This document shows, piece after piece, positions 3,535-12,076 of a stretch of 12,076 nt of DNA (its first letter is position 1; each line of letters starts with the position of its first letter). Both the position numbers and the translations under genes were made by a program. The notes beneath the pieces were generated by a model, which saw only the letters and a list, made by a program, of their open reading frames with translations, had not been told where the DNA came from and searched no databases. The stretch comes from an uncultured Pseudomonadaceae bacterium (GTDB lineage Bacteria; Pseudomonadota; Gammaproteobacteria; Pseudomonadales; Pseudomonadaceae), in the NCBI GenBank assembly GCA_947630465.1, contig CANRHT010000045.1:1-12076 (forward strand), read 5' to 3'.

Positions 3535-3598
3535 ACAGAGCATAGGTATAATCCGCTCAAATATTGCAAGCCTGCACTCCAAAAGAGACAAACGCAAA
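3535..3598. repeat. Imperfect direct repeat right of the rpn-like gene
   Basis: This is the partner of 2401-2465, in the same orientation. ACAGAGCATAGGTATAA at 3535-3551 differs from the left block at two positions, and the following bases are loosely alike. TATAAT at 3547-3552 looks like a -10 box but lacks a properly spaced -35. This block sits 43 bases after the rpn-like stop codon. Confidence 0.42.
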
Positions 3599-3624
3599 AC
3601 CCACTCAGCCCTCAACTGCTCAAC

Positions 3625-3729
3625 ACGAGTGGCACTGGGTCTGTGGCAAGCGTAGCCATGGATGGCGTAGCGCCCGAATCGAGCCCCGGATGGGCTCGTT
3701 GAGGGATAAACAGATTCAGTGCCACTCGC
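3625..3729 (+). repeat. Structured dispersed repeat, copy 3
   Basis: This is a 105-bp copy of the 172-275 element, in the gap where the rpn-like gene and the ATPase operon converge. The arms are 3625-3644 and 3710-3729. One pair that is G181-C266 in copy 1 has become A3634-T3720, a compensated change. The other deviations are two G.T pairs and one terminal A-C mismatch. The inner hairpins are at 3655-3666 and 3680-3698. The two GCGCAGC direct repeats of copy 1 are both GCGTAGC here. The 377-base gap 3492-3868 contains this element, the direct repeat at 3535-3598 and the module at 3781-3844, and no credible gene. Confidence 0.82.
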
Positions 3730-3780
3730 AACGCACCAGTCTAGATAACAAAACTTACAGTCGACATAGCGACAAGCAGG

Positions 3781-3844
3781 CAACACTCCGATCTAGACCA
3801 ACAGATCTACAACACAGACCGCCGCTAGCAAAGCACACACAAAC
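3781..3844 (+). repeat. Second repeat module, matching 275-337
   Basis: This stretch resembles the sequence right after copy 1 (275-337). Shared blocks, in order, are CAACACT, CTAGACC, ACAACACA, GCTAGCAAAGC and CACAAAC. In copy 1 the module directly abuts the right arm. Here about 50 unrelated bases (3730-3780) separate them. The repeat unit is therefore larger than the hairpin element. Confidence 0.6.
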
Positions 3845-3868
3845 CAAGCAGCACAGAACTGCTGAAAA

Positions 3869-4738
3869 TCAAGCTAAATGCCCGATCACAATATCCATCA
3901 ACTCATTAGTGATCTCATCTTGACGCACACTACTGAGTTCTTGCTGCACCGACTCCAGCTGCTCATCCACCGACTGCTCAGCCTGCTGCATTAACGCCAA
4001 ACGCGTTGCATTTTCAGTCACCATTGCTTCCGCAGACGCACGAAACACACTGGCAAACACATGATTGCGAATCAACGACGCCAATAACGCCTCAGCATCC
4101 ATCGTGTAATCCGGTAAAGAACGTGATTGCCAACGCTGCTGTGGCTGCAATAATGACGACGCCAAAGGCAATAAATCACGCGTGACCACCTCTTGGTAAC
4201 CGTGCTCAGCACGCTGCGTAAACACCAAAGTCACCGCCAAATTCGTCAACGACTGCCCACGGCCTAAACGCTCAACTCGCGTAACAATATCCCCTGCCAA
4301 ACGCCCAACACCATCTGCAGAGGCCGGCGGCATCAACACCGCATCGGGCGTTAATTCCTGCTCCAATAAAGCATTGGCCATACGCGAACCAATACACAAA
4401 ATATGCTGCTGAGCAATCGGCTGCTCAGCGCTGTAGGCCGTCACCCGATTGGCCAGTAACTCATTATAGTTACCGCACAAACCATGATCAGAACCAAACA
4501 CCACCAACAAACGCTGATGCGGCTGCACCGCCTCAGTCAGCAGACTGACACCACCGGTGCGATAGACGAAAGCCGCCAAACCTTGCAACACCGTTTGATG
4601 ATAAGCCTCAATCGATTGCGCCGCCTGCTCATAGGGCGCGGCATTAATCGCTGACAGCGTTTTCATCGTGTGCACAATGCTTCGAATACTGGTCAGCGTG
4701 TCATTTTTACGTGAGAGGTGCTCAAGGGTTTGCGCCAT
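3869..4738 (-). CDS. atpG: N-ATPase F1 subunit gamma
   Basis: The protein is 289 aa, the expected length for the central-shaft gamma subunit. The N-terminal helix (SIRSIVHTMKTLSAINA, about 17-33) and the C-terminal helix (DEITNELMDIVIGHLA, 274-289) form the antiparallel coiled coil that rotates inside the alpha3beta3 ring. The middle contains the Rossmann-like part (LLVVFGSDHGLCGNYNE, about 78-94). It is the last gene of the operon, as in the canonical N-ATPase order atpDCQRBEFAG. The start ATG is preceded by GAGG at a 6-base spacing, and 8 bases separate it from the atpA stop. No strong terminator follows: the only candidate is a 5-bp AGCAG/CTGCT stem at 3847-3863 without a clear T-run, beyond which the repeats begin. 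Confidence 0.93.
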   Translation of the reverse strand: MAQTLEHLSRKNDTLTSIRSIVHTMKTLSAINAAPYEQAAQSIEAYHQTVLQGLAAFVYRTGGVSLLTEAVQPHQRLLVVFGSDHGLCGNYNELLANRVTAYSAEQPIAQQHILCIGSRMANALLEQELTPDAVLMPPASADGVGRLAGDIVTRVERLGRGQSLTNLAVTLVFTQRAEHGYQEVVTRDLLPLASSLLQPQQRWQSRSLPDYTMDAEALLASLIRNHVFASVFRASAEAMVTENATRLALMQQAEQSVDEQLESVQQELSSVRQDEITNELMDIVIGHLA

Positions 4739-4746
4739 TTATCGCC

Positions 4747-6300
4747 TCACTCGCCCAATTCAGCAGCAGACACATCCAGCGCCAGCAACGCCTCGCGTGC
4801 GCACGCCACAATCAGCTGATGATCATCCTCTTGCAGCGTTTCATTGGCCGCAATACGTTGTTCAATCACCGTTAACTCTTGTTGCGCTGCATCGCGAACC
4901 AAACGCAGCGCCGCACTGATTTGCTGCTCATCAAACTGATCAAACAAACCTTCCATCGCCGCCACTAACACCGCCAACTGCTCAAGGGCGGGCATCGGAT
5001 CGCGCTCCGCTTGGCGTAAAGCCGTGCGCACTGCCGTGCCTCGTGCTAAGCGCGCACGGGTCACATCATCCAAACGCGTACCAAAACGTGCAAAATCTTC
5101 CAGTTCTTCAAACTGCGATAAAGTCACGCGTAAGTTGCCTGACACACCGCGCAAAGTACGGTTCTGCGCTTTACCGCCCACCCGTGACACTGACAAACCT
5201 AAATCCACCGCCGGAAATTGGTTTTTACGCACCAACTGCGGTGACAAATAAATCTGTCCATCGGTAATCGAAATCAAGTTGGTCGGAATATACGCCGACA
5301 GGTTACCTGCTTGAGTTTCTACCACCGGCAACGCCGTAATAGAACCACCACCAATTTCTGCACCAAACTGCCCAGCACGCTCTAACAGACGCGCATGCAC
5401 ATAGAAAATATCCCCCGGAAAAGCCTCACGCCCCGGTGGACGGCGCAGCAATAACGACAGTTCACGGTAAGCACGGGCGTGGTGAGTCATATCATCAAAG
5501 ATCACCAACACATCCTGACCTTGTGCCGAGAAATACTCAGCCATCGTCATCGCCGCATAGGGCGCGATATAGGCCAGCCCCGGTGCTTCTTCATCACCGG
5601 CGCTCATGACCACAGTACGCTGCAGCATCTTGCCGTCTTCGAGCGCACGAATCACCCGCGCTACCGCATCGCCACGCTGCCCCACTGCACAATAAACACA
5701 GATCACATCGGTGCGCGCTTGATTGAGCATGGTATCAATGGCAATCGAGGTTTTACCGGTTTGGCGGTCACCAATAATCAGCTCACGCTGCCCAAGGCCT
5801 ACAGGAATCGCTGCATCAATGGCTTTGAGACCCGTGGCTAAAGGTCGAAAAATGGGTGTACGGTTGAGAATACTTGGCGCTTCGGCCTCAATCGGATGCT
5901 CAGCCACGGCATCTATTGGCCCAAGTATGTCGCGTGGCCGCCCCATCGCATCCACCACCCGCCCGAGCAATGCCGAACCCACAGGCACACTGACCACTTT
6001 ACGGGTGCGGTACACAGTTTCACCCAGCGCTATCAGCTCTGATGGCCCCAGCAAAATCACGCCTAAACGACCCGGCTCTAAGTCCAGCACGATACCTTGC
6101 ACGCCACAGGCAAACACCAGTAACTCATCGGCTAAAGCACGCGCCAAACCCGACACAATGGCCACACCATCGCCGACTTCAGTCACGATACCGGTTTCAG
6201 TCAGCACCGGCGTTGGCGTAGGGCTGGCCACTAAAGTATCCACCCAAGCATTAAAATCCTGCGCAGATCCGGACTCAATCGTTTTATCAAGCTCAGTCAC
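4747..6300 (-). CDS. atpA: N-ATPase F1 subunit alpha
   Basis: The protein is 517 aa from the chosen GTG start, close to the usual ~510 aa. It is the non-catalytic nucleotide-binding subunit of the alpha3beta3 hexamer. Motifs (GTG numbering) are Walker A GDRQTGKT at 177-184, the Walker-B-like VLVIFDD at about 264-270, and [10 protein letters not shown] with the arginine finger at about 373. The reading frame extends upstream to 6423 through two ATGs (6360, 6321). However, AAGGGG at 6307-6312, overlapping the atpF stop, sits 6 bases before GTG 6300, and the extra residues do not look like alpha. The gap after atpF is 10 bases. The C-terminal helical domain is complete and ends 8 bases before atpG. 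Confidence 0.95.
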
Positions 6301-6312: not shown

Positions 6313-7081
6313 AGCGGCCATCGGCGCTGAGTCGTACTGAGGTATGAGCGGATGCATGTTGAGTGAGCAACTCAGCCAGCTCATCCATATAGCTGTCAGT
6401 GGTCCACGCCACTTGCGCACCACCCACTTGCATCACCAAACCGGGTGACTGTTGTTCACGAATCGCAAAACTCACACTCACCTGCGGCAACCACTGCTGC
6501 ACTTCTTTCTGCAGCAAGGCTTGAGTGGCTTGGGGTAATGGCGCACGCGTGGTGACCTGTGCTTGCTGACTGCCGGCTGCCGACTGGATTAACTCGTCAG
6601 CTATGGGCTGCAACTGCTTACCAATATGACGCACAATGGCATCTTCAAGCTGCTCATCCGCTAAATCATGCAGTGCTTTGCGAGTTAAACGCACGAGTGC
6701 ATCGGCACCGTTTTTTTGTAAGCGCTGATTAAAGGCCTGACGCTCATGCTCAAGGTGTGCACGCCAGTCTTTTTGCTCTTGCTGCAAGGTGCTACGCCCT
6801 TGCGCCAGCAACTCATCACGCTCAGTTTCGGTGGTGGCTAAGGCTTTTTCCAGCAAGGCGTCCTGTTCAGACACCAACTCCGCACGTTGCTGTAGGTACT
6901 GCTGCTCAGCTGTTTTTGCAGCATGCTGGGCCTGTTCAGCCGCCGCTATACGCTTGGCAATTTCAGTTTCGCGCGCATCAATACCCTCTAAAATCGGACG
7001 GTAGAGAAAACGCTTCAACAACCACAACAACACTAAAAAGTTAGCAATCTGTGCCAGCACTGTGACCCAATCAATGGACAT
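6311..7081 (-). CDS. atpF: N-ATPase Fo subunit b, long form with delta-like C-terminus
   Basis: The protein is 256 aa, against about 156 aa for E. coli b. One N-terminal membrane helix (about 5-25, followed by [18 protein letters not shown]) is typical of b. A long charged, Ala/Gln-rich coiled coil follows, about 35-165, forming the peripheral stalk. The tail, about 185-240, includes [18 protein letters not shown] and a MDELAELL helix. It resembles the end of the delta subunit, which has a V/I-x-x-G-D core and a final RLERLADLL-type helix. N-ATPase operons lack atpH, so this tail may replace delta in tying the stalk to F1; that part is inference. It begins 6 bases after atpE. Confidence 0.92.
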
Positions 7082-7087
7082 AAGTGA

Positions 7088-7366
7088 TTAAGCTCCTGCT
7101 GCCGCCTGCATGGAATCCCAGAACGGGTTAGCAAATATAAGAATCATCGCCACTACGAAGCAATAAATTGCCGTGGATTCAATCATCGCCAAACTGACAA
7201 ACAAAGTACGCGATAAAGTCGGTGCCGCATCCGGTTGCTGGGCAATTGCCGCAATCGCCGCCGCCGCCGCACGCCCTTCACCTAAAGCGGGGCCGAGCGA
7301 ACCAATAGCAACGGTTAAGCCAGCGGTAAAAATTGAAATAGCGGCAATCAGCGCAAGATCAGTCAT
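7088..7366 (-). CDS. atpE: N-ATPase Fo subunit c (rotor ring, two-carboxylate ion site)
   Basis: The protein is 92 aa, a two-helix hairpin. Helix 1 is about 5-42, the loop is QQPDAAPTLSR (43-53), and helix 2 is about 54-80. Helix 2 carries IESTAIY: Glu63 is the ion carrier, and Ser64, Thr65 and Tyr68 match the Na+-site residues of Ilyobacter c. Helix 1 has Glu30 in GPALGEGRA where Na+-type F-ATPases have Gln32, giving a two-carboxylate site. The glycine ladder ends in an alanine run (33-37), which may affect ring size. N-ATPase c subunits were proposed to be Na+-binding, but the Burkholderia pseudomallei ring was reported H+-specific with 17 subunits, so the ion is open. AAAGGA lies 8 bases before ATG. 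The gene overlaps atpB by 8 bases. Confidence 0.95.
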   Translation of the reverse strand: MTDLALIAAISIFTAGLTVAIGSLGPALGEGRAAAAAIAAIAQQPDAAPTLSRTLFVSLAMIESTAIYCFVVAMILIFANPFWDSMQAAAGA

Positions 7367-8060
7367 GGTGTTTATCCTTTTCAGACGTTTTAACAGTGGG
7401 TTCTGCCATAGCAGATGAAATATACACAGTGGCTAAAATGGCAAAAATATATGCCTGAATAAAGCCGGTTAATAAACCGAGCATATCCATCACCACTGGA
7501 AAGAAAAAGGGCGCGATACTGAGCAAAATAGCCGCAATCACGGCTCCGCTCATCACGTTGCCATACAAACGAATGGCCAGCGATACACCGCGGGAAAACT
7601 CACCAATAATATTAAACGGCAACATAATCAACGAGGGTTCAATAAACTTATGCAGGTACTGGCGCACACCGCCATTGGCAATGCCAAACATCGGAATTGC
7701 CACTAAGACTGATAAAGTCAAAGCCACAGTGGTTGATAGCGATGAAGTCGGTGCGGCAAAGCCTGGAATCACCGCCAACACGTTCGACAGGGCAATAAAC
7801 AGAAACAGTGTGCCGGCAAAGTACAACACATGCCGTGCGCCGCTGCGGGTCACTTCTTCGATTTGCCCTTGAATCGTGGTCACCACCAACTCTAAAGCAC
7901 TGCGCCAGCGCCCCGGTGCTGTGTCAGCACGCAAATTGCGCGTGACCAACATCGAAATAATCACCAGCAGTGCCATTACAATCCAAGTATTCACAATGGT
8001 CGCACTCACCGGCCAACTGCCGAGATGAAAAACTATTGTTTGATCGGGACTGAGCTGCAT
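7359..8060 (-). CDS. atpB: N-ATPase Fo subunit a (ion half-channels)
   Basis: The protein is a 233-aa multi-pass membrane protein and the stator partner of the c ring. The key motif SLAIRLYGNVMSG places the essential Arg at 164 (E. coli Arg210). Gln202 in FIQAYIFAILA corresponds to E. coli Gln252. LSNVLAVIPGF (about 91-101) and PSLIMLPFNIIGEFSRG (142-158) are also typical. It is shorter than E. coli a (271 aa), mostly at the N-terminus. The ATG directly follows the TAA of atpR, and the end overlaps atpE by 8 bases, so the genes should be translationally coupled. Confidence 0.94.
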   Translation of the reverse strand: MQLSPDQTIVFHLGSWPVSATIVNTWIVMALLVIISMLVTRNLRADTAPGRWRSALELVVTTIQGQIEEVTRSGARHVLYFAGTLFLFIALSNVLAVIPGFAAPTSSLSTTVALTLSVLVAIPMFGIANGGVRQYLHKFIEPSLIMLPFNIIGEFSRGVSLAIRLYGNVMSGAVIAAILLSIAPFFFPVVMDMLGLLTGFIQAYIFAILATVYISSAMAEPTVKTSEKDKHHD

Positions 8061-10596: not shown

Positions 10597-11298
10597 TTAT
10601 GCAAAATCCTCTGCGGTTTGTACGCGTACATCGTTCCACTCAATGGCACGGCTGCGCCAATGCTCTTCAATGGACTGGGCAAAATCAGCACGCACTAACT
10701 TGGCGCGTGCCTCACACCACAGCTCAGAATCATGACGCATGACCACACCCTCAGGTGTCCCTTCACGGTATTGGCTGCTGGCACTGCTGAGTAACGTTTT
10801 GAGTTCGTCTAGCGTGGTGTGACCTTGATACAAAGTGGGTACGACAGCTAAACCCAACTGGGCTGCCAGCGCATTGCGACGCTCACAACTCCAAAACTTT
10901 TGTTCAGTGCGGTCATACACATCAAACACCACAAACCAATCGGGCAAATTATCGTAATCCAAGGAGTGACGCGCGGCGCACCACTCACCAAAAATGATCC
11001 AATCGCTTTTTAAGCTATCACATAAAGCATAACGATGCTGAGCCAACCAAGAATTGAGGCGTGAGAACTGCCCAGCAAAAGGCTCTAACAGGTACTGACC
11101 GCGATTTTGCGCACGCAGTTCGCCATTTTCGCGCATCGAAATGCCTAAGTTGGCGCCATCAAGCTTTTCCTCAATACGCAGCGGTTCAGCTAAAATAGCT
11201 GCCACTTCAGCGTCATTGAGCACCTTATCGTCACGCGGCATACCCTCACCGAGCCAATCAATATGCGGTGTATGAGGGAATCGAAAGAAATCAGACAT
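10597..11298 (-). CDS. Rnl2-like RNA ligase family protein
   Basis: The protein is 233 aa. It carries the ordered nucleotidyltransferase motifs: I, EEKLDGAN with the AMP-accepting Lys45 and Asp47-Gly48; III, IIFGEW with Glu105 (102-106); IIIa, WFVVFDVYD (121-129); IV, PEGVVMR (182-188); and V, AKLVRADF (199-206). This is the catalytic domain of RNA ligases (T4 Rnl2 type), which seal 3'-OH/5'-phosphate RNA ends via an adenylated enzyme. It lacks the C-terminal domain of full-length Rnl2 (about 330 aa) and any DNA-ligase OB domain, so it is a minimal ligase. Its ATG directly follows the TAA of the PIN gene, with GGAGAG just upstream, so the two are coupled. The context suggests RNA repair paired with RNA cleavage. 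The substrate is unknown. Confidence 0.85.
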   Translation of the reverse strand: MSDFFRFPHTPHIDWLGEGMPRDDKVLNDAEVAAILAEPLRIEEKLDGANLGISMRENGELRAQNRGQYLLEPFAGQFSRLNSWLAQHRYALCDSLKSDWIIFGEWCAARHSLDYDNLPDWFVVFDVYDRTEQKFWSCERRNALAAQLGLAVVPTLYQGHTTLDELKTLLSSASSQYREGTPEGVVMRHDSELWCEARAKLVRADFAQSIEEHWRSRAIEWNDVRVQTAEDFA

Positions 11299-11853
11299 TT
11301 ATTTACTCTCCGGCATGGCAGGCGCTGGAACATGGCGCTGCCTTGGAAACTTGTTTTTATAGAAACGCTGCGCATCGGCAGCACATAAAAATTTAATCTG
11401 GATACCGTGCTCCGCTAAAGCGGGCCACCAATCAATCCACTTGCAATCTGCGGCTTGCCAAATCGTTGGCTTATCCGCATGCGCATAGGCATGCGCCACA
11501 GCAGGAAAAATACGGTCAGGCGGATCAAAACGTGCTTGCAGTGCTTGATCTGGAAACTCAGCGTAACAATCAATATCGGTGAGCGTCACATTGACCATTT
11601 CCACCCGCGCAGGATTACCCATATTGCGTAGCAGCCATTTCAAGAATACATCACCTACACCGCGCGGTGGTTTGATGCGGGTTTTGTGCTGGTACTCGCC
11701 TAAAATAATAAAGGCATCATCAATCACCACCACGCCAGTCTCTTGAACCCCTTGCAAACGCTCAATGCAGTGAGCCACACACTCAGTCGACATTTCAGGG
11801 TGCTGTTGATTGGCCACTAACAAAACATTGGTATCAATCACCACTTTAAGCAT
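11299..11853 (-). CDS. PIN-domain putative ribonuclease
   Basis: The protein is 184 aa from ATG 11853; a GTG at 11859 would add two residues but leaves only 2 bases after the AGGG site, versus 8 for the ATG. The N-terminal strand VVIDTNVLL carries Asp7. Glu53 (LGEY), Asp110/Asp113 (FDPPDRIF) and Asp136 (AADCKW) fit the acidic metal site of PIN nucleases. The family cleaves single-stranded RNA (VapC toxins, rRNA maturation), and some members act in defence systems. No VapB-like antitoxin is adjacent. It lies 10 bases after the ATPase gene and abuts the RNA ligase gene with no spacer, so the three form one operon. It is longer than a typical VapC (about 130 aa), with a basic tail (FYKNKFPRQRH). 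Confidence 0.8.
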   Translation of the reverse strand: MLKVVIDTNVLLVANQQHPEMSTECVAHCIERLQGVQETGVVVIDDAFIILGEYQHKTRIKPPRGVGDVFLKWLLRNMGNPARVEMVNVTLTDIDCYAEFPDQALQARFDPPDRIFPAVAHAYAHADKPTIWQAADCKWIDWWPALAEHGIQIKFLCAADAQRFYKNKFPRQRHVPAPAMPESK

Positions 11854-11863
11854 AGCCACAGCC

Positions 11864-12076
11864 CTAATTATTCTGCTGACGTTTGCGTTGCACGGCTGCC
11901 ATCGCGCGTGCGGCGATATCGGTCATTTCATCACCAAATAAATTCTCTGGCCAATTAGCAATTTCACCGTAAGTATCCACATTGAGTGCTTCAATCTGTG
12001 TTTGCGTGCCATTACGACTGCAAAAGTACAGCGCGACATCGGTGTGACTGATCACACCTTCAGCAATACGTCTTTG
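11864..12076 (-). CDS. C-terminus of probable AAA ATPase (DUF3696-like), partial
   Basis: The frame is open to the window edge (starting QRRIAEGVISHTD) and ends at TAG 11864-11866, giving 70 visible residues. DVALYFCSRNG and YGEIANWPENLFGDEM resemble the end of DUF3696, which follows an ABC/AAA-type ATPase domain in OLD/RecF-like prokaryotic ATPases. No ATPase motif is in the window, so the assignment rests on this tail alone. The stop codon overlaps the ribosome site of the PIN gene. Such ATPases commonly act as sensors or regulators beside nucleases. A GTG at 12055 is internal, not a start, because the frame continues upstream. Confidence 0.6.
   Translation of the reverse strand, partial: QRRIAEGVISHTDVALYFCSRNGTQTQIEALNVDTYGEIANWPENLFGDEMTDIAARAMAAVQRKRQQNN

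Follow-up and report, generated by a model that had tools for sequence, protein, structure and literature searches.

An OLD-type ATPase, a PIN-fold nuclease and a small RNA ligase in one gene cassette: a candidate for RNA cutting and resealing in bacterial defence

The last 1.5 kb (10597..12076) of a 12,076-nucleotide stretch of DNA from an uncultured Pseudomonadaceae bacterium (GenBank assembly GCA_947630465.1, contig CANRHT010000045.1), the whole of which is called the window below, contain three minus-strand genes that form one unit, in the order ATPase tail, PIN nuclease, RNA ligase. An earlier note, made from the letters alone, had described three adjoining genes here (spacing 10 and 0 nucleotides) encoding a probable DUF3696 ATPase tail, a PIN protein and a 233-residue ligase; the analysis confirmed it. 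In other genomes the three genes keep this order and tight spacing, their products keep their active-site residues and predicted folds and diverge together, and the cassette is frequently embedded in defence operons. We propose, at a probability of roughly one half, that it is an ATPase-gated RNase, PARIS-like in its logic, whose cuts are resealed by the RNA ligase, and that it has a role in defence.

Loci were collected with the PIN alone, by a PIN-alignment scan that used one genome per species and two exact peptides and that favours close relatives. In the best 80 of the 96 confirmed loci the ATPase gene lies upstream of the PIN gene in every case, and the ligase gene lies downstream in 76; the exceptions are L095, L096 and L103, which have no ligase, and L033, which runs into the end of its contig. 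These counts reject a chance grouping of the three genes, and the constant ATPase neighbour likewise rejects a VapBC layout, in which a small antitoxin gene stands directly upstream of the PIN. A less biased sample came from the PADLOC profile HEC-03A, run on two overlapping sets of 369 class-level and 398 phylum-level genomes. Apart from the window it contains 17 distinct loci, with the ATPase in 17 and the ligase in 11. The association of the three families in other genomes, which the earlier note had wished to see checked, is strong. The gap between the PIN and ligase genes is −11 to +11 nucleotides in all 70 loci measured (−4 in 32) and that between the ATPase and PIN genes −17 to +35 (−4 in 21), where a gene was taken to begin at the first start codon met on going upstream from a conserved residue. 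PIN and ligase occur together in Pseudomonadota, in two Sphaerochaeta metagenome-assembled genomes (L094, L100) and on a Rhodococcus plasmid.

The pairwise distances of the three proteins are correlated over 63 dereplicated loci (79 rows, of which six were removed for low cover and ten more by dereplication), with coefficients of 0.62 for PIN and ligase, 0.58 for PIN and ATPase and 0.41 for ligase and ATPase, and 0 of 2000 permutations gave as high a value for any pair. At the level of sequence this shows joint inheritance rather than binding, because species history is left in the distances.

More telling is what happens when the nuclease changes. Within the window's family outside its genus there are ten near-full-length ligases, four of them 60–67% identical to the window's ligase and six 52–66% identical to that of locus L120 (199 genomes of one genus); a 29-residue ligase match in G006 stands outside this count. 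All ten adjoin a PIN-type protein. Beside five ligases (G033, G210, G625, G765, G680) it is a PIN of the HEC-03 type, beside four (G051, G695, G639, G697) a diverged PIN. Against HEC-03A the diverged PINs give 6e-7 (L186), 1.4e-7 (L119) and no match at 1e-4 (L188); that of L186 aligns with a PIN profile at a probability of 96%, those of L188 and L190 were assigned by eye. The tenth ligase (G193, L120 7158–9531) has a different PIN, with a Pfam PIN match at 2.7e-4 and 22.0 bits, below the cut-off of 23.6. The L120 row also contains a helix-turn-helix–peptidase protein matching RmrA at 7e-53, and looks like a toxin-antitoxin-like unit with a ligase. This ligase clade retains a PIN neighbour when the type of PIN changes, and we take this exchange of the nuclease around a constant ligase as the strongest hint of a ligase in the service of the cut.

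The window's ATPase fragment matches Pfam DUF3696 (9.5e-12) and PADLOC HEC-03B (1.9e-22, positions 388–455 of the 458 of the profile). Its gene is interrupted by the contig end, the N-terminal part being off the contig. The possibility, raised in the earlier note, of the ATPase being merely a fragment fails, since full-length versions are found in other loci; for one of these, from a genus relative, the HEC-03B match reaches 1.6e-104, and AAA_15/AAA_21 are present. The next-best PADLOC model of this protein is NsnB (6.2e-58), and AriA of PARIS (1.6e-23) stands behind HEC-03B, NsnB and PDC-M55A. Among relatives, the Walker A residues G34-K35-S36 are kept in 82 of 82 and H378 and E380 in 83 of 83. 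A search of the PDB with the ATPase profile gave no match.

The window's PIN matches HEC-03A at 2.2e-24 with a score of 84 bits. The earlier note had found its acidic residues intact, and this extends to the relatives: T10, N11, D47 and E55 are kept in 83 of 83, D9 in 82 of 83, and D112, D115 and D138 in 82 of 82. The predicted structure is a PIN fold, on a list of fold matches that also includes non-PIN names (RohQ at 8.0); of the four rows that a PDB search with the PIN profile returned, none bears the name of a PIN protein. The protein is probably an RNA-cutting enzyme. HARP is a PIN-type RNase, but the HARP models do not match the window's PIN, and this identity was rejected. In L101 (7992–8531) a Gly replaces the first catalytic Asp of the PIN, and the ligase retains the residues that are invariant among the relatives.

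These residues of the ligase are K45, D47, G48, G104, E105 and D126 (79 of 79), and E183, G184 and K200 are kept in 78 of 78; the motifs that the earlier note called intact are so throughout. The protein has the nucleotidyltransferase fold with the ligase motifs of an Rnl2-type RNA ligase, and its predicted structure is nearest to sealing RNA ligases. The C-terminal domain that follows motif V in the Rnl2 type is not present: the window's ligase stops 33 residues past K200, with residues 209–233 at a pLDDT (the confidence score of the prediction) below 50. The relatives' ligases, as bounded for the alignment, are of similar size (about 224–243 residues). None of the PADLOC models matched the ligase at E values up to 1. 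That just any RNA ligase pairs with a PIN was considered and rejected: within 4.2 kb of seven longer ligases (L162–L168, 27–40% identity) neither this ATPase nor this PIN has a match. In this set, L162, L166, L167 and L168 adjoin a protein of 379–405 residues, alike among the four by eye, and possibly represent another RNA repair pair. Small ligases of the cassette type may serve as reagents.

In other genomes the cassette is often found in or beside restriction-modification and related operons. It lies between HsdS and HsdR of a type I system (order HsdM-HsdS-cassette-HsdR) in L038, L039 and L043, and between a methylase and an HNH gene in L042, L044, L045, L053, L055, L063 and L098, some of which have a helicase too and three an unlabelled 664-residue protein. 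A type III methylase and an unassigned protein precede it in L065, L073, L077 and L082. In L088, L104 and L105 it adjoins a helicase, a protein matching Orf5/HEC-06 and an HmaB-like methylase (L104 directly at 5.4e-71, the other two through clustering); in the islands of L095 and L131 the helicase scores DpdE above HmaA. Of ten neighbour families with PADLOC labels (nine labelled through a named member, HsdS by tally and position), one or more are present in 25 of the 73 loci whose flanks were examined; dereplication leaves 19 of 63. Among the immediate neighbours at least 16 of 111 match PADLOC models, as compared with at most 3 of 110 frames in a control set drawn from 20 places in 10 genomes (Fisher p 0.003, the genomes of the two sets being unmatched and related loci not independent). 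Upstream, at least 8 of 52 are labelled (5 methylases, 3 type I specificity subunits); downstream, at least 8 of 59 (3 HNH, one of them L095's own third gene, 2 type I restriction and 1 each PsyrT, type III methylase and Orf5/HEC-06). These were counted by hand from the first 25 of 144 upstream and 25 of 87 downstream families, with the classes taken as exclusive.

The cassette is also found on plasmids. The PIN occurs in 12 of 72,556 plasmid records, and in the six of them that were read the ATPase is annotated upstream in 6 and the ligase downstream in 5. Ligases of at least 45% identity were found in 9 plasmid records, all of which also have the PIN; by coordinates the two abut in 8, the listed piece in AP022111 being partial and 1.6 kb away. 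Conjugative plasmids are among the carriers, and one cassette (L128) is on a plasmid of Azotobacter chroococcum. A phage-borne system was rejected, with 0 PIN matches in 50,697 phage records and 0 confirmed among 17 pattern stretches in viral contigs.

In the mechanism that we infer, the OLD-type ATPase would sense a signal or hold the PIN, the trigger probably being phage interference with host restriction-type defences. Once triggered, the ATPase would free the PIN to cut cellular RNA, most likely tRNA, and translation would halt. Hydrolysis by the PIN would leave 5′-phosphate and 3′-hydroxyl ends, which the ATP-dependent ligase, acting on the PIN's own products, could seal without an end-healing kinase. 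For AriB of PARIS, which cuts tRNA, a 3′-OH is confirmed and a 5′-P expected (PMC12409363; this and the papers below are cited from the part of their text available to us). If the PIN cuts like AriB, the ligase alone may be carried because these ends need no kinase; the gene rows of the cassette contain none, though no search aimed at kinases was made. In healthy cells the ligase would mend leaky cuts, and survivors of an infection would recover. We suggest tentatively, with somewhat less than even odds, that this amounts to a self-contained reversible immunity, in which infection leads a gated PIN RNase to disable RNA of the host and a co-encoded, kinase-free ligase reseals this RNA. If true, abortive infection would become a pause that can be undone. 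To our knowledge, RNA-cutting defences have been described as one-way, with repair mainly a counter-move of the phage or a matter of separate host operons. With a nuclease and a ligase retained together, reversible immunity would become directly testable.

Several observations weigh against this proposal. The ATPase-PIN pair is tolerated without the ligase, in 10 of 103 scored loci of the ATPase tree and in 6 of the 17 loci of the profile sample (L122, L123, L192 and L193, which form one tree group, L199 and L202). On HEC-03A, L122, L123, L192 and L193 score 125–251 bits and the window's form 84. In L095 (6619–9283) and in L131 of an Acinetobacter soli plasmid (8639–11296, the ATPase annotated as two frames) an HNH protein replaces the ligase. 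The ligase, with its catalytic domain only, may not finish sealing unaided. VapC toxins, which are PIN proteins, are reported to leave 5′-OH ends (PMC6459853), and these would block direct sealing. The loci with type I neighbours are close relatives, as are those with type III neighbours, and each set may go back to a single event; in 48 of the 73 loci the ten labelled families are all absent. Within the genus of the window the cassette stands at a fixed site by an ATP synthase operon, not in a defence island: all 7 loci that have both flanks show the order permease-ATPase-PIN-ligase-ATP synthase beta. The closeness to known defence genes that the earlier note had suggested looking for is strong in other genomes (restriction-modification, HmaB-like and helicase-methylase operons) and does not hold in the window's genus.

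The ATPase tree comprises 104 loci with ATPase frames of at least 350 residues and a matched PIN (L061, L071, L075, L090 and L132 are not on it); 93 have the ligase, 10 have none and one was not scored. Gain and loss of the ligase takes six changes on this tree as compared with 9.7 in shuffles, 0 of 500 being as low. Loci with the ligase stand on either side of the midpoint split; those without it are one group and, elsewhere, scattered single cases of loss, the tree being a FastTree tree with long-branch warnings and a midpoint root for drawing only. L095 and L131 combine a PIN of the window's type with the HNH protein and with an ATPase that falls in the other deep group, as sister to L186; we read this as module shuffling. 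L170 (about 4956–5680) has a C-terminal piece of the ligase, then a frame whose start resembles by eye the HNH protein of these islands, and no match to the ATPase or PIN; it looks like a decayed island.

How else could the three genes work together? The PIN could cut a specific host RNA in housekeeping RNA processing, the ligase joining or circularising the product and the ATPase acting as a remodeller, with the defence neighbours being incidental. A joining or circularising role is under consideration for HARP with an Rnl3 ligase, which was found in 665 of 751 HARP-positive genomes (PMC12153264), and the window's ligase weakly matches TIGR01209 (30.4 bits, cut-off 136.9); its profile also matches solved ligases of that kind (E 6.6e-5 and weaker). 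The fixed site fits such a function too, and with PIN or ligase in 11 of 12 listed genomes the cassette is an inherited fixture in the window's genus. However, the PIN is patchy in the family (12 of 248 genomes, 10 of them in one genus), the cassette travels on conjugative plasmids and lies within or beside restriction-modification-type operons, and the HARP models remain unmatched; we regard housekeeping as unlikely. An accessory function in restriction, in which the PIN makes cuts or nicks in DNA and self DNA is sealed by the ligase, would agree with the adjoining methylase and restriction subunits and with the HNH protein in the ligase's place at two loci, yet it seems distinctly unlikely to us.

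The ligase-fold protein might also be a nucleotidylating antitoxin or an end-capper that attaches AMP to the PIN, to the ATPase or to the 5′ ends of RNA and joins no RNA. It consists of the nucleotidyltransferase domain only, and nucleotidyltransferase antitoxins exist, such as MntA for HepT. But every motif is conserved, not the adenylation lysine alone, and sealing RNA ligases have the most similar fold. This is not decisive, as adenylation by itself would also need most of these motifs; we consider this reading improbable. Most improbable is a ligase that alters rather than repairs, with PIN fragments misjoined or circularised so that the damage becomes permanent or a signal is made. An Rnl3 ligase does circularise RNA (PMC12153264); ligase-less forms would, however, need another way of working, and nothing in this analysis bears directly on the idea.

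The window is contig C45 of a 308-contig, 2.2-Mb genome bin (76% complete), whose nearest named relatives are Denitrificimonas. Another contig of the bin, C91, encodes the family's ATPase at full length together with the beginning of a PIN (6318–7793, L116). The bin contains two strain variants of the ATPase end and PIN start, because the overlapping ends of C91 and the window (11700–12076) are 85.2% identical over 297 bp. At the other end of the window, the plus-strand frames 176–451 and 3564–3923, outside the main genes, have the stretch KRSHGWRSARIEP in common, which may mark a repeated element on either side of the window's first genes.

Table 1. Genes of the cassette in the window.
Product	Position	Strand	Basis
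OLD/AriA-like ABC ATPase, DUF3696, HEC-03B family, C-terminal 70 residues	11864..12076	−	Pfam and PADLOC
PIN-fold nuclease, HEC-03A family, 184 residues from ATG (alternative GTG at 11859)	11299..11853	−	
RNA ligase, Rnl2-like nucleotidyltransferase fold, catalytic domain only, 233 residues	10597..11298	−	

The earlier note had not recognised the combination as a described system. This does not hold for the ATPase-PIN half, which is already listed as PADLOC defence candidate HEC-03, with the same ATPase (HEC-03B) and PIN (HEC-03A) in the same order, and described in outline; it stands for the ligase as third gene, which HEC-03 is listed without. No description of the three-gene form was found in the literature searched, likely sources including the source paper of HEC-03 being outside the search. 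NsnB, the second-best model of the ATPase, is presumably a gene of the Menshen system; PADLOC, as we take it, has models for the other Nsn genes, and neither the PIN nor the ligase of the cassette matches any Nsn model at E values up to 1. In loci of the BREX defence system, pairs of an OLD-ABC ATPase with a PIN or another nuclease have been read as backup effectors (PMC12839542). An OLD-ABC ATPase with a PIN endoRNase is the same kind of pair as in the cassette; the word ligase is absent from the main text of that paper, whereas the cassette carries one. PARIS detects a phage anti-restriction protein and then cuts tRNA (PMC12839542). It shares with the cassette the logic of ATPase plus nuclease, its AriA being related to the cassette's ATPase (which three other models match better), and differs in that AriB is a Toprim nuclease and no ligase is present, whereas the cassette has a PIN (by HEC-03A match and fold model) and a ligase in addition. 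RNA ligases that counter ribonuclease damage, comparable to the role proposed here, are known from T4 Pnk-Rnl1, which counters RNA damage by PrrC (PMC3506569, PMC12409363), and from Pnkp1-Rnl-Hen1 (PMC4411300). Both need end-healing enzymes and T4 repair belongs to the phage, whereas the cassette has ligase and nuclease in one operon. In HARP with Rnl3 no ATPase is mentioned in the available part of PMC12153264, the ligase is typically placed bidirectionally, and the nuclease differs from the cassette's PIN; as a nuclease genetically linked to an ATP-dependent RNA ligase, it is the nearest documented linkage of the cassette's sort.
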